Source of the DNA: Anaerolineales bacterium
Lineage (GTDB): Bacteria; Chloroflexota; Anaerolineae; Anaerolineales; Anaerolineaceae
NCBI GenBank assembly: GCA_020060485.1
Contig: JAGVAB010000050.1
Span: 1-27,742 of the forward strand
DNA: 27,742 bases
Direction: 5' to 3'
Shown in pieces: positions 22,032 to 27,742 of the stretch. Numbering within the stretch: position 1 is the stretch's first letter; each line of letters opens with the position of its first letter. The translations under genes and the position numbers were made by a program. A model generated the notes under the pieces. That model did not search any database. It saw only the letters and a program-made list of their open reading frames with translations, and was not told where the DNA came from.

Positions 22032-23336
<1,305 letters not shown>

Positions 23337-23414
23337 TTATTGTCCCTTTTTTATCTTGATTGATCTGGAAAAACAGGAAACTCCGCTTGATGTATGTCCA
23401 GGCATCTTATTTGT

Positions 23415-24368
23415 TTATACATTCTCCTTTTCACACTCCACACGGTATAAACTGGTTGTTTGATCCAGATCATAGGGTGTTTCCTGGTATACGTAATAAT
23501 TGATCCAGTTGGCAAACAACAAGTGTGAATGACCGCGCCAACGTACAACAGGCAGCCTGGACGGATCGTCGTCAGGATAATAATTGTCAGGAATTGAAAT
23601 GGGTAATCCTGCTGCCACATCACGGTCGTATTCACTTTTCAAGGTGAAGGGGTCATATTCTGAATGACCCGTGATGAACACTTGCCGGCGGTCCACAGCT
23701 TCGACAATGTAAATTCCGGCTTTGTTTGACTCTGCCAGGATTCTCAAATTGGGCACATTCTCAATATCAGCCCGCCGGATTTCTGTGTGGCGGGAGTGTG
23801 GCGCATAGAAAACGTCATCAAATCCCCGTAACAACTTGACGTTCTTTTCAATGACGTTATGTTCAAAAACACCAAACTGCTTGGCGGCCAATGGGTACTT
23901 GGGAATGCCATACTGGTGATAAAGCGCAGCCTGGGCAGCCCAGCAGATATACAGATGAGCAAATACATTGCTCAAGCCCCAATCCATGATGGTTTTTAGT
24001 TCTTCCCAATAGTCCACTTGATCGAATTCCAATTGTTCCACAGGTGCACCGGTGATGATCATTCCATCAAATCTTTGTGCGCTGAGCTCGTCAAAGGTTT
24101 GATAAAAATTAAGCAAATGATCTTCGGAGGTGTTCTTGCTCTGATGTGTGCTGGTTCGCATCAGGGTCACTTCCACCTGTAAGGGTGTGTTTCCGAGCAA
24201 ACGCAGCAATTGGGTTTCCGTGGCAATCTTTGTGGGCATTAAATTCAAAACCAAAATTTTTAGAGGGCGAATATCTTGATGGATAGCCCGGTTTTCATCC
24301 ATGATGAAGATATTCTCATTCTTGAGGATTTCATAAGCTGGTAACTGGTTTGATATTTTGATTGGCAT
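23415..24368 (-). CDS. metA: Homoserine O-acetyltransferase, MetA family
   Basis: A 317-residue MetA-family acyltransferase, first step of methionine synthesis from homoserine. I place the start at ATG 24368 ([11 protein letters not shown]), preceded by AAGGAG; the longer frame covers the leader terminator. Catalytic residues fall at the family positions: C142 (ICWAAQ), H235 and E237 (ITGHSEYDP). Residue 111 is Glu ([10 protein letters not shown]). Published work on MetA proteins links Glu111 to acetyl-CoA use and Gly111 to succinyl-CoA use, so this should be an acetyltransferase despite the common succinyl name. That agrees with metY downstream. The gene is AT-rich relative to neighbours (one counted line 47%). 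Leader regulation is described separately. Confidence 0.93.
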
Positions 24369-24403
24369 TCCATTCTCCTTCGGGTCAAACGGTAAAATAA
24401 AAA

Positions 24404-24425
24404 GAGCCCGGGAGCATTCCCGGGC
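24404..24425 (-). terminator. Intrinsic terminator within the metA leader (attenuator)
   Basis: On the minus strand, arms AGCCCGGG and CCCGGGCT enclose AATGCT and are followed by CTTTTTATTTTA. It lies between the leader peptide and metA, 36 bases before the metA ATG, so it must be bypassed for metA-metY expression. Confidence 0.85.
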
Positions 24426-24446
24426 TGACCAACATTCTTGGGGCTG

Positions 24447-24474
24447 CTCCTTCAATTTTTCAGGAGCAGTACAC
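24447..24474 (-). promoter_or_regulatory. Competing hairpin segments of the metA leader
   Basis: CTGCTCC and GGAGCAG can pair with each other over a 12-base loop. The first arm (extended as GTGTA-CT-GCTCCT, 24474-24462) can pair instead with AGGAGC-TTT-TACAC (24540-24527), which overlaps the leader peptide just after its Met/Cys cluster. GGAGCA can also pair with TGCTCC inside the terminator. These mutually exclusive pairings are typical of an attenuator, though the exact logic needs folding. Confidence 0.55.
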
Positions 24475-24494
24475 TTTTTCTTGGGCTGTATGTC

Positions 24495-24602
24495 TTATTG
24501 GTTCGTATACAGGCATGTCAAAAAAGGTGTAAAAGCTCCTCGCTTCATACACATTATGCACATGCCCATCATTTTTGTTGAACCAAAAAACTTAGTAGCC
24601 AT
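24495..24602 (-). CDS. Methionine/cysteine-rich leader peptide of the metA-metY operon
   Basis: A 35-codon frame starting at ATG 24602 and ending TAA at 24497-24495. Codons 11-19 read MMGMCIMCM: five Met and two Cys in nine codons, with another Cys at position 30. The frame begins about 20 bases after the predicted transcription start, with only a weak ribosome site (CGGAATCGG). An internal start at the first clustered ATG (24572) is possible. After the frame come alternative hairpins and a terminator, then metA. This layout fits ribosome-mediated attenuation, in which scarcity of charged Met (or Cys) tRNA stalls the ribosome at the cluster. The role is inferred; the cluster itself is plain in the sequence. 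Confidence 0.7.
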   Translation of the reverse strand: MATKFFGSTKMMGMCIMCMKRGAFTPFLTCLYTNQ

Positions 24603-24628
24603 TTACCGATTCCGTTTCTTAGTTGACT

Positions 24629-24657
24629 AGTTTACGACTTTAATAATTCTTTGTCAA
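24629..24657 (-). promoter_or_regulatory. Promoter of the metA-metY operon
   Basis: On the minus strand a consensus TTGACA (24657-24652) and TAAACT (24634-24629) have 17-base spacing. It would give a leader of about 250 bases before metA that holds the leader peptide and terminator. Confidence 0.7.
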
Positions 24658-24670
24658 GAAATTTTGACAA
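24651..24670. promoter_or_regulatory. Inverted repeat over the metA -35 region (candidate operator)
   Basis: TTGTCAA and TTGACAA are perfect inverted seven-base arms with a six-base spacer. One arm is the -35 hexamer of the metA promoter, so a bound regulator could act there. It may also be chance, because -35 hexamers contain TTGACA. Confidence 0.4.
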
Positions 24671-24781
24671 TTATCCGATTCCGCAGAAGTGGTTTCAACA
24701 AATCTTTTCCCGCAAGTGACTCCAAACTCCGCTGCCACGGCAAATCCCAGAGACCCGGCAAAAAACGTGCGGCAAAAAATG

Positions 24782-24811
24782 TGGACAATTCCCACTCCCC
24801 TATGATATACT
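24782..24811 (+). promoter_or_regulatory. Promoter of the rpsB-tsf unit
   Basis: TGGACA (24782-24787) and TATACT (24806-24811) with 18-base spacing, about 120 bases before the rpsB ATG. Confidence 0.55.
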
Positions 24812-24840
24812 TGCTCCGCTTAACCATCTTATCATCCCAC

Positions 24841-24887
24841 ACGCCTCCCGACCTTGCCCGGCGTGCTGCCCAGAGGGGCAGTTCGGG
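24841..24887 (+). promoter_or_regulatory. Structured rpsB leader
   Basis: A hairpin CTGCCC-AGAG-GGGCAG (24866-24881) is flanked by CCCGA (24847-24851) and TCGGG (24883-24887), giving a possible two-level stem. ACGCC/GGCGT is an alternative pairing. S2 genes in several bacteria are controlled by leader RNA; here this is only suggested by structure. Confidence 0.35.
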
Positions 24888-24934
24888 CCTGGAATGAAGG
24901 AGGCGGAGGAAAAACGCAAAAGGAGAGTTGCAAA

Positions 24935-25855
24935 ATGGCTTCTGTAGTTTCCATGAAAGCCCTGCTGGAAAGCGGGGTGCACTTCGGGCATCGCACCAAT
25001 AAATGGGATCCAGCGATGAAACCCTATATCTTCACCGAGCGCAATGGTATCCATATCATTGACTTGCAGCAAACGGTGAAATCCCTGAATGATGCATACG
25101 GTGTTGTACGCGATGTGGCTGCCAAGGGCGGCACGGTGTTGTTTGTGGGCACCAAGCGCCAGGCGCAGGAAACCATCCGCGAAGAAGCGGAACGCTGCGG
25201 CATGCCCAGCGTGACCGAACGCTGGCTGGGCGGCACCCTCACCAACTGGGTCACCATTCAGCAGCGCATCCGCGAGCTGGAACGCCTGGAGCGCATGACA
25301 GAAACTGGCGAGATCCACATGCTGACCAAAAAGGAAGGCCTGATGATCGAGCGCGAGATCAACCGCCTCAACATCCGCCTGAGTGGTATCCGCCACATGG
25401 TGAACCTGCCCAACCTGCTGTTTGTGATTGACGTGACCCGTGAAGAAACAGCCATCCACGAAGCAAACCTGAAAGAAATCCCGGTGATTGCCCTGGTGGA
25501 CACCAACTGCAACCCGGTCAATGTGGATTATCCCATCCCATCCAATGATGATGCCATCCGCGCCATCAAGCTGTTGGTGGGCAAGATGGCTGATGCTGTG
25601 CTGGAAGGCAAGTCCATGCGCAAGGATGATGTTGCGGATGAAGGCTTTGAGACTTCGGCTGCCAGAGAAGCCGCCGCAGCCGCCCCGCGTTTTTCGCGTG
25701 ACGAAGAACTTTCAGACGAGGAACTGCTGGGAGCCTCCACTCTGGCCAAGCTGCGCCCTGAGGAAGAGGAAGAAGTCCTGGAAGAAATTGTTGAAGAAGA
25801 TGTTCCTGAAGAAGAAATTGTTGACGATTTTGTTGACGAGGAAGATGAGAAATAA
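24935..25855 (+). CDS. rpsB: 30S ribosomal protein S2 with long acidic tail
   Basis: A 306-residue S2 protein of the small ribosomal subunit. The core (1-228) is standard: [20 protein letters not shown] (10-29), [14 protein letters not shown] (72-85), [10 protein letters not shown] (96-105), [15 protein letters not shown] (163-177) and the conserved LVDTNCNP (187-194). Residues 230-306 form an extra tail rich in Glu and Asp (for example 276-290, 291-306), beyond the usual length of about 230-260. The start ATG 24935 has AAAGGAGAG upstream; the frame to 24854 is untranslated leader. tsf follows at 48 bases. Confidence 0.95.
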
Positions 25856-25903
25856 TCTCTCGTCTTGAACCGGGACCCGATTATTGTAATGAAGGAATAA
25901 AGA

Positions 25904-26521
25904 ATGGCAATCACAACTGAAATGATCAAAGAACTGCGTGAAACAACCCATGCCGGTATTCTGGACTGCCGCAAAGCCCTGGAGGCTTCGGAAGGCGATT
26001 TCCAGAAGGCCATGGATTACCTGCGAGAAAAAGGCCTGGCCACTGCCGCCAAGCGCGCCAGCCGGATGGCTTCAGAAGGCGTGGTTGAGCTTTACTCCCA
26101 CGGCAACGGCCGGGTGGGCGTGATGGTTGAAGTGAACTGCGAAACCGATTTTGTGGCCCGCTCGGAAGATTTCCGCAATTTTGCCCATGAAGTCGCTTTG
26201 CAGATTGCGGCCGCCTCACCGCTGTACATCTCGGACGATGACATCCCCGAGACGGAACTGGCTCATGAAGCGGATATCGCAGCCGCCAAGGCTCGTGAAG
26301 AAGGCAAGCCGGAGAACATTCTGCCCCGCATCGTTGAGGGTTATCTGAAGAAATACAAAGACGAAAACGTGCTGATGCGCCAGACCTATATTCGTGATGA
26401 CAGCATCACCATTCAGGAACTGCTCAATCAGACGATTGCCTCCACCGGTGAAAACCTGGTGATCCGGCGGTTTGCTCGCTGGGCATTGGGCGAAGGTGCT
26501 CAGGAAGAAAGCGAAGATTAA
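25904..26521 (+). CDS. tsf: Translation elongation factor Ts
   Basis: A 205-residue guanine nucleotide exchange factor for EF-Tu. The UBA-like N-terminus (IKELRETTHAGILDCRKAL, 8-26), and TDFVAR (80-85), which contacts EF-Tu, are present. The protein is of the short type (as in Thermus, about 196 residues) rather than the 280-residue E. coli type. A ribosome site GAAGGA precedes ATG 25904. It is followed directly by a strong terminator, so pyrH can be transcribed separately. Confidence 0.95.
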   Translation: MAITTEMIKELRETTHAGILDCRKALEASEGDFQKAMDYLREKGLATAAKRASRMASEGVVELYSHGNGRVGVMVEVNCETDFVARSEDFRNFAHEVALQIAAASPLYISDDDIPETELAHEADIAAAKAREEGKPENILPRIVEGYLKKYKDENVLMRQTYIRDDSITIQELLNQTIASTGENLVIRRFARWALGEGAQEESED

Positions 26522-26526
26522 TAGAG

Positions 26527-26557
26527 AAAAGGCCAACCATTCGGTTGGCCTTTTTTT
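26527..26557 (+). terminator. Intrinsic terminator after tsf
   Basis: Arms GGCCAACC and GGTTGGCC around ATTC, extended by AAAA/TTTT, followed by a run of seven T. It lies four bases after the tsf stop. Confidence 0.92.
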
Positions 26558-26619
26558 ATCAAACCGTACACCGGGTCGGTTGAGGCATTAGTTTGATAGA
26601 ATCCGGAAAACAACTGTAG

Positions 26620-27357
<738 letters not shown>

Positions 27358-27383
27358 AACTGAATTTTGGGAAGAAATAATTA

Positions 27384-27442
27384 ATCAAACCGGTTACTTC
27401 GTCCCCATACGGGGATAATACAAGCCCAGTGACCGGTTTGAT
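27384..27442. repeat. Palindromic repeat element, copy B
   Basis: Inverted relative to copy A at 4165-4224. Outer arms ATCAAACCGGTTACT (27384-27398) and AGTGACCGGTTTGAT (27428-27442) pair with one wobble on the plus strand. The inner hairpin is CCCC-ATAC-GGGG (27403-27414). Differences from copy A include paired changes in the outer stem (CCC/GGG region to ACC/GGT), which keep the pairing. Confidence 0.7.
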
Positions 27443-27466
27443 CAAGTTCAAATGGGTTTAAGGATC

Positions 27467-27515
27467 AAGCCCAGGCCGGCGCCATGTACTCACTGGCAGC
27501 TTGCCTGGGCTTTTT
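27467..27515 (+). terminator. Intrinsic terminator after pyrH
   Basis: Arms AAGCCCAGGC (27467-27476) and GCCTGGGCTT (27503-27512) enclose a 26-base loop and are followed by T residues (TTTTT from 27511). Confidence 0.7.
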
Positions 27516-27742
27516 GCTGCACATGGACGGCATCTTACCTTTCATGGCATTCTCAAGAAAGCTTGACATTTACGATTTTCCAAAACAGTGAAGGTCATCC
27601 AGATCAAAGTAGATGCAAAATGCTGATGATAATGGGCTGCCTTCTGCCGCCATTTCCCCCCCGGCACGGATTGGATTTGTAAATCAGACTTCATAGGCCG
27701 GGGGAGGAAAAGAAACGTGCGGTGTTGAGCAGCGGCGAAGCC
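27516..27742. other. Window end without a supported gene
   Basis: Nothing certain is seen in these 227 bases. A TTGACA occurs near 27564 but has no good -10 at normal spacing. A GGGGGAGG near 27700 has no suitable start codon after it. A minus-strand frame open to the window edge and ending near 27680 could be the tail of a gene, but it is too short to judge. Confidence 0.4.

Follow-up and report, generated by a model that had tools for sequence, protein, structure and literature searches.

In the trp, his, leu and thr attenuators, a short leader peptide rich in the amino acid made by the operon precedes an intrinsic terminator, and the position of the ribosome sets which of several mutually exclusive hairpins is formed. 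When the trp leader is left untranslated, transcription terminates. The controls known for methionine genes are SAM riboswitches, T-boxes and repressors, and to our knowledge do not include attenuators that use Met codons. For cysteine, polycysteine leader ORFs have been described ahead of mycobacterial cys operons (Canestrari et al. 2020, as cited in the available part of PMC13236596). Cys-codon leaders ahead of mycobacterial cys genes had also been predicted in a study which, in the portion accessible to us, found no conserved terminator hairpins for them and saw no conserved RNA structures upstream of the methionine operons of Actinobacteria (PMC1262725). In Rhodobacterales, uORFC-8-2, located ahead of cysS and carrying tandem Cys codons and a terminator, was proposed to act by ribosome-mediated attenuation (PMC8632094, available in part). 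A Met-codon attenuator was not found in the literature searched, which left out most subscription papers, and the accessible parts of PMC2965389, PMC4833913, PMC9413887, PMC9373788 and PMC1273637 make no mention of one. Ribosome-mediated attenuation and Cys-codon leaders being already known, the Met-codon form described here would constitute a new variant.

The window analyzed, a stretch of 27,742 nucleotides from an Anaerolineales bacterium (contig JAGVAB010000050.1), very probably harbors, ahead of metA-metY, a transcription attenuator of the ribosome-mediated type, through which both genes respond to the charging of tRNA-Met and, to a lesser degree, of tRNA-Cys. The basis of this proposal is computational and comprises conservation, alternative pairings, covariation and a switch of the nascent fold upon masking of segment A, from which we infer the stalling of the ribosome, a kinetically set commitment, the tRNAs that are sensed and the physiological response. 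The leader resembles those of trp, his, leu and thr, differing from them in the use of Met (and Cys) codons. With the mycobacterial polycysteine leaders, as far as the available parts of those sources describe them, it shares Cys codons and the sensing of a sulfur amino acid by a leader peptide, and it differs from them in its conserved intrinsic terminator, its covarying alternative stems and the dominance of Met ahead of metA. The partly available account of uORFC-8-2 sets that leader apart by its gene (cysS, against metA here), its alphaproteobacterial hosts and its Cys codons.

A reading made from the sequence alone had proposed a promoter, a 35-codon frame with MMGMCIMCM, alternative stems and a terminator ahead of metA and metY, and every one of these elements is present, in this order, on the minus strand. 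The promoter-like site TTGACA-17-TAAACT (24629..24657, with TTGACA at 24657 and the last base of TAAACT at 24629) matches at 10 of 12 positions, which by itself is weak, the same 1-kb region containing five promoter-like sites where 1.3 would be expected. Among 21 leaders, 14 have a TTGAC box, at 43-79 nt 5′ of their start. The predicted leader ORF (MATKFFGSTKMMGMCIMCMKRGAFTPFLTCLYTNQ, 24495..24602), recognized by ORF reading and by its counterparts in relatives, carries its putative control codons at positions 11-19 (24546..24572), as delimited by translation and cluster comparison. These include Met at codons 11, 12, 14, 17 and 19 and Cys at codons 15 and 18. Such a density, seven Met/Cys per nine codons, was reached by a single one of the 44,188 stop-free six-frame windows in the 27.7 kb, namely the leader cluster. 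Segment A (GGAGCUUUUACAC, 24527..24539) begins 6 nt past the last Met codon, and may pair with segment B (GUGUACUGCUCC, 24463..24474), whose other partner is segment C (GGAGCAGCCC, 24441..24450); the stem letters read GGAGC at 24539-24535, CUGCUCC at 24469-24463 and GGAGCAG at 24450-24444. The terminator hairpin D:E (24405..24426) has nine pairs, seven of them G-C, and is followed by a T-rich tract (24394..24404). Its GCUCC (24415-24411), spanning the loop and the 3′ arm and invariant in the nine sequences of alignment A3, would serve the antiterminator. Downstream lie metA (23415..24368, ATG at 24368), of the homoserine O-succinyltransferase family (Pfam HTS, 1e-140), and, 3′ of it, a gene for a metY-type Cys/Met PLP enzyme (22032..23333; Pfam Cys_Met_Meta_PP, 5.3e-138), for which the name metY is a reading beyond the family match. 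The leader RNA folds with z = -4.77, and none of 200 shuffles was equally stable.

The sequence-only reading had also seen no SAM riboswitch at this locus, and the Rfam covariance-model matches to E = 1 in 22500-27742 bear it out, including neither a SAM riboswitch nor a T-box. On the plus strand, a weak match to Rfam t44 was observed at 24820-24915 (26.5 bits, gathering score 44), just 5′ of an rpsB-like gene; the plus-strand genes from 24854 on were read from their ORFs as rpsB, tsf and pyrH.

According to the proposed mechanism, when methionine is plentiful the ribosome would cross the cluster into segment A (in the relatives L001-L003 and L005 it would run to a stop codon inside A), and with A covered, B would pair with C and the D:E hairpin would end transcription before metA. 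When methionine is short, the ribosome would stall in the early Met codons and leave A free to form A:B, upon which C would take GCUCC and the end of the 5′ arm of the terminator, and RNA polymerase would read on. A leader left uninitiated for want of fMet-tRNA would also leave A free, making read-through the default state. The spacing of the codons is consistent with this scheme. The first three Met codons end 30, 27 and 21 nt before segment A, farther than the roughly 10-12 nt that a stalled ribosome covers downstream of its A-site codon, so stalls there would leave A free. The last Met codon lies 6 nt from A, and since a ribosome stalled on it would cover A, only early stalls would give read-through. 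In relation to trp, his, leu and thr, what we call type I is an A-B-C-D/E chain with a separate terminator hairpin whose loop side would be trapped by C, and type II is a direct A:D antiterminator. Moreover, the untranslated leader is predicted to be ON, as opposed to that of trp.

The comparison of relatives suggests that segments A to E pair alternatively, with compensatory changes. A (GGAGC..ACAC) can pair with B (GUGU..GCUCC), B with C (GGAGCa), and D with E as the terminator, and C, extended by the bases after it, has alternative partners in the end of the terminator 5′ arm and in GCUCC of the loop and 3′ arm. In 14 aligned sequences, 89.7% of the A:B cells were standard pairs, with 13 cells changed on both sides, and the corresponding values for B:C plus D:E were 94.9% and 18, pairing counts that are leaned by the fitting of alignment A4 to A:B and D:E. 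For both sets, none of 500 shuffles was as high in pairing percentage, double-changed cells or covariation score, and slid partners paired less (32-61% of cells for A:B, 32-54% for B:C plus D:E). The number of pairs with a double change was equalled by 162 of 500 shuffles for A:B and by 17 for B:C plus D:E, and that of pair types by 317 and 318, respectively, leaving two of the five measures for A:B, and pair types for B:C plus D:E, not above chance. The C:E core displayed no covariation in the aligned sequences, being invariant or changed on one side, and its extension was group-specific (CCC with GGG, CCUGAG with CUCAGG, UUCUC with GAGAA). Among eight chosen representatives, 446 of 40,320 permutations did as well as or better than the own C′/D′ partners in summed duplex energy; taken alone, neither the window nor the L001 group was fitted better by its own partners than by foreign ones.

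The direction of the switch was addressed by folding nascent transcripts of 18 type I sequences to just past GCUCC, with A free or covered, the counts being based on C:E and D:E values only. In 11 of the 18, the window included, a free A gave A:B and the antiterminator (at least 0.79), and a covered A gave B:C, with the antiterminator at 0.10 or less and termination permitted. For the window itself the values were 0.79 and 0.00, so that masking the bases after the cluster, as the first reading had suggested, shifts the nascent fold from the antiterminator to the B:C state. The remaining seven had no clean nascent switch: the antiterminator was poor even with A free in L004, L177, L009 and L183, and persisted with A covered in L182, L184 and L186. 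In sets of 200 trials, a shuffled A did as well as the real one 7 times for the window, once for L001 and never for L008 and L178. In the type II leaders L007 and L162, A paired with the 5′ arm of the terminator at 0.93-1.00 until the 3′ arm was nearly out (in L007, 0.76 at 10 nt of arm and within that range from 12 nt on).

At full-length equilibrium with A free, the terminator won in 17 of 18 type I sequences, L008 being the exception, which means that the decision must be kinetic and taken while RNA polymerase adds only a few nucleotides. For the window, the value of the antiterminator dropped from 0.83 to 0.01 as the transcript grew from 5 to 9 nt past the GCUCC start. The terminator also won in full-length type II folds from A on (0.85 and 0.83); in a longer stretch of L007 the antiterminator was the minimum-energy fold and the terminator the centroid. 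Both types agree in the modeled outcome, a free A leading to read-through and a covered A to termination. The sequence-only reading had left unsettled which state terminates, and both the four-segment order and type II give read-through for a stall upstream of A. Its attenuator interpretation is thereby supported at the level of sequence, by the conserved cluster and terminator and by the nascent-fold switch on masking.

A scan with MetA yielded 80 loci, and more came from searching 298 genomes of the class and 147 of the family. The tree comprised a selection of 29 MetA rows (one family search alone matched 39 genomes), of which 13, the window included, had a leader ahead of metA, 12 had SAM-I only and 4 had neither in the examined locus. 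As the first reading had anticipated, the Met cluster, the frame up to the cluster and the terminator recur in related Anaerolineaceae and the other codons drift. Type I leaders precede metA in the window, L001-L005, L008, L009, L146, L181 (the second metA of genome G006) and L179 (=L150), and PALP/cysK-like genes in L177 and L178, the gene of L177 being assigned by reading only. Simpler type II leaders precede metA in L007, from Ornatilinea apprima P3M-1, and in L162. The cluster of L146 fell below the ORF-scan threshold and was found by eye, and other weak leaders may be missed. A search of the 147 family genomes with model R1 gave 14 matches, consisting of 8 training sequences, 5 new loci with a Met/Cys leader and L180 (genome G350), which on reading of the locus was rejected as a chance terminator look-alike. 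Models R1 and R2 include the Met cluster, and their matches are hence not independent of it. In a phylum sample of 400 genomes there was a single match, at 5e-4, which was the already known G002, indicating that type I is narrow. A full type I leader (MMAMCMLC) was also observed in L182 ahead of an MFS_2 transporter gene with no evident sulfur link.

In seven of the 13 metA leaders (L001-L005, L181 and L150/L179), a SAM-I riboswitch (RF00162) lies between the attenuator terminator and metA. Relatives have RF00162 upstream of metA, and these seven loci have it within the attenuator leader itself; it is absent from the window leader, and it senses SAM, not tRNA charging. The window groups with the tandem rows (99/95), and support for placing it next to them and not among them is weak (88/69). 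In L012/L178, the leader is ahead of the cysK-like gene and a SAM-I stands between that gene and metA, an arrangement suggestive of staged control in one cluster.

The codon content of the leaders appears to vary with the genes that follow. A search of 396 class genomes with model R2 gave 15 non-training matches with E up to 0.01, the best four of which (L183, CMCMC; L184, MCMCCIC; L185, MCMCCMC; L186, MCNC) all place a Met/Cys frame ahead of a gene of the Pfam NIR_SIR family, which stands for nitrite or sulfite reductase, not told apart by the match. Of the others, L197 has its Met/Cys frame upstream of a gene for a Prok-JAB protein and of a metY-like gene, the leader in L195 is a weak case, and nine are terminator look-alikes with no Met/Cys frame (L187-L194 and L196). 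Model R3, built from the same locus set with no leader ORF and run on 400 genomes of the order, yielded two sites not seen before with E < 1e-5, and a Met/Cys leader is present at each: L205 (MMACMC), ahead of a NIR_SIR gene, and L206 (CLCCMC), ahead of a gene for an NMT1-like binding protein. This cut was set post hoc, the first miss, L207 at 7.6e-5, lying below the two real matches. The 19 weaker loci read (L207-L225) were look-alikes, with at most four Met/Cys per nine codons (L208, in coding-like sequence).

The Met:Cys ratio was 51:15 in 12 metA leaders against 13:18 in the six NIR_SIR/NMT1-like leaders (L183-L186, L205 and L206), with a Fisher p of 0.001 in which related rows are not independent, and of 0.003 with one metA row per group. 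L004 was kept outside the 12 because the contig end cuts its cluster and its start codon is unseen. Neither group included L182 (4:2), L197 (4:3), L195 or the cysK-like leaders L177 and L178, whose 9:4 does not clearly fit a trend from Met to Cys. In L184 and L195, two leaders are possibly placed in series before one nitrite/sulfite reductase gene, the first terminator being followed by another frame (MTTPWTLCICLKRD and MRLPIRFFTRCVCMRRGH).

Other explanations for the conserved cluster were considered. The ATG cluster could be a structural element of the RNA in which the frame is incidental, since the cluster region pairs with the downstream GACAUGCC in the minimum-energy fold of the window and, ATG having no synonyms, codon and base conservation are indistinguishable at Met. 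However, the codons between the ATGs vary (GGC, GGT, GTC, GAC, GCA, CTT and others), the gaps are of three bases, Cys uses both synonyms (TGC 9 and TGT 10 times in 14 clusters), and the clusters are Cys-richer ahead of NIR_SIR-family genes, so that this possibility appears improbable, if marginally less so than the two considered below. Control by translated Met/Cys codons also accommodates the loci L001-L003 and L005, in which one base is missing after the cluster: the frame shifts and ends at a UAA within segment A, and the RNA segment GAAGCGAGGAGCUUU is unchanged, which argues that the Met/Cys content and the downstream RNA are kept, and not the peptide tail.

If the peptide itself were the sensor, SAM or methionine might induce ribosome arrest at the nascent leader peptide in place of tRNA starvation, an idea to which the regulated product, a SAM precursor, and the SAM-I in the same leader of seven relatives lend some appeal. 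Nevertheless, only the Met/Cys content is conserved, the clusters differing in length, order and neighbors, and we infer that arrest by abundant SAM would free A and cause read-through, the wrong sign for feedback; we consider such an arrest very unlikely. An equally slim chance is given to a metal- or redox-sensing nascent peptide, whose Met/Cys motif would bind copper or zinc and whose arrest or folding would move the RNA switch. MMGMCIMCM does resemble what is generally known as a soft-metal ligand motif, but residue spacing in the clusters is not fixed, some metA-leader clusters have no Cys (MMLMSMDM, MSMDM, MAMAM, MMLMVM), and, with the exception of L182 (MFS_2), the downstream genes are metA, PALP/cysK-like, NIR_SIR-family and NMT1-like binding protein genes. 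Sensing of charged tRNA-Met by the translating ribosome is thus preferred to all three.

A broader proposal, for which we hold the chances to be evenly balanced, is that Anaerolineaceae and their kin possess a family of sulfur-amino-acid attenuators that are ON by default when not translated, in which shortages of fMet-tRNA and of elongator Met-tRNA would act alike. At the seven loci in series with SAM-I, transcription of metA would require both a shortage of Met-tRNA and a low level of SAM, and the codons would have been retuned from Met to Cys ahead of sulfite-reductase-type genes. As a signal for attenuation methionine is awkward, since a lack of it also impairs translation initiation, a problem that the opposite default would solve. 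The series with SAM-I would amount to a two-signal gate in one leader, with adjacent metabolites as inputs. The claim is testable, since the carriers include a named strain, Ornatilinea apprima P3M-1 (type II).

The pattern TGYNNNTGYMTNAARCGRGG was also searched in 199 genomes, where its 13 matches against 9 for the reversed control prove little by number; on reading, five of these 13 matches are followed by sulfur genes. Frames of the form CxC[LIM]KRG were observed right before a GGGG-like stretch in L226, L228, L230, L234 (=L129), L235 and L237 (=L131), with 14-47 codons in four of the six and a greater length in L228 and L230 when counted from their first start. By reading, five of these six frames precede sulfite-reductase-, cysteine-desulfurase-, cysK- or metA-like genes, and they are perhaps a second, wider family of Cys leaders in Anaerolineae.
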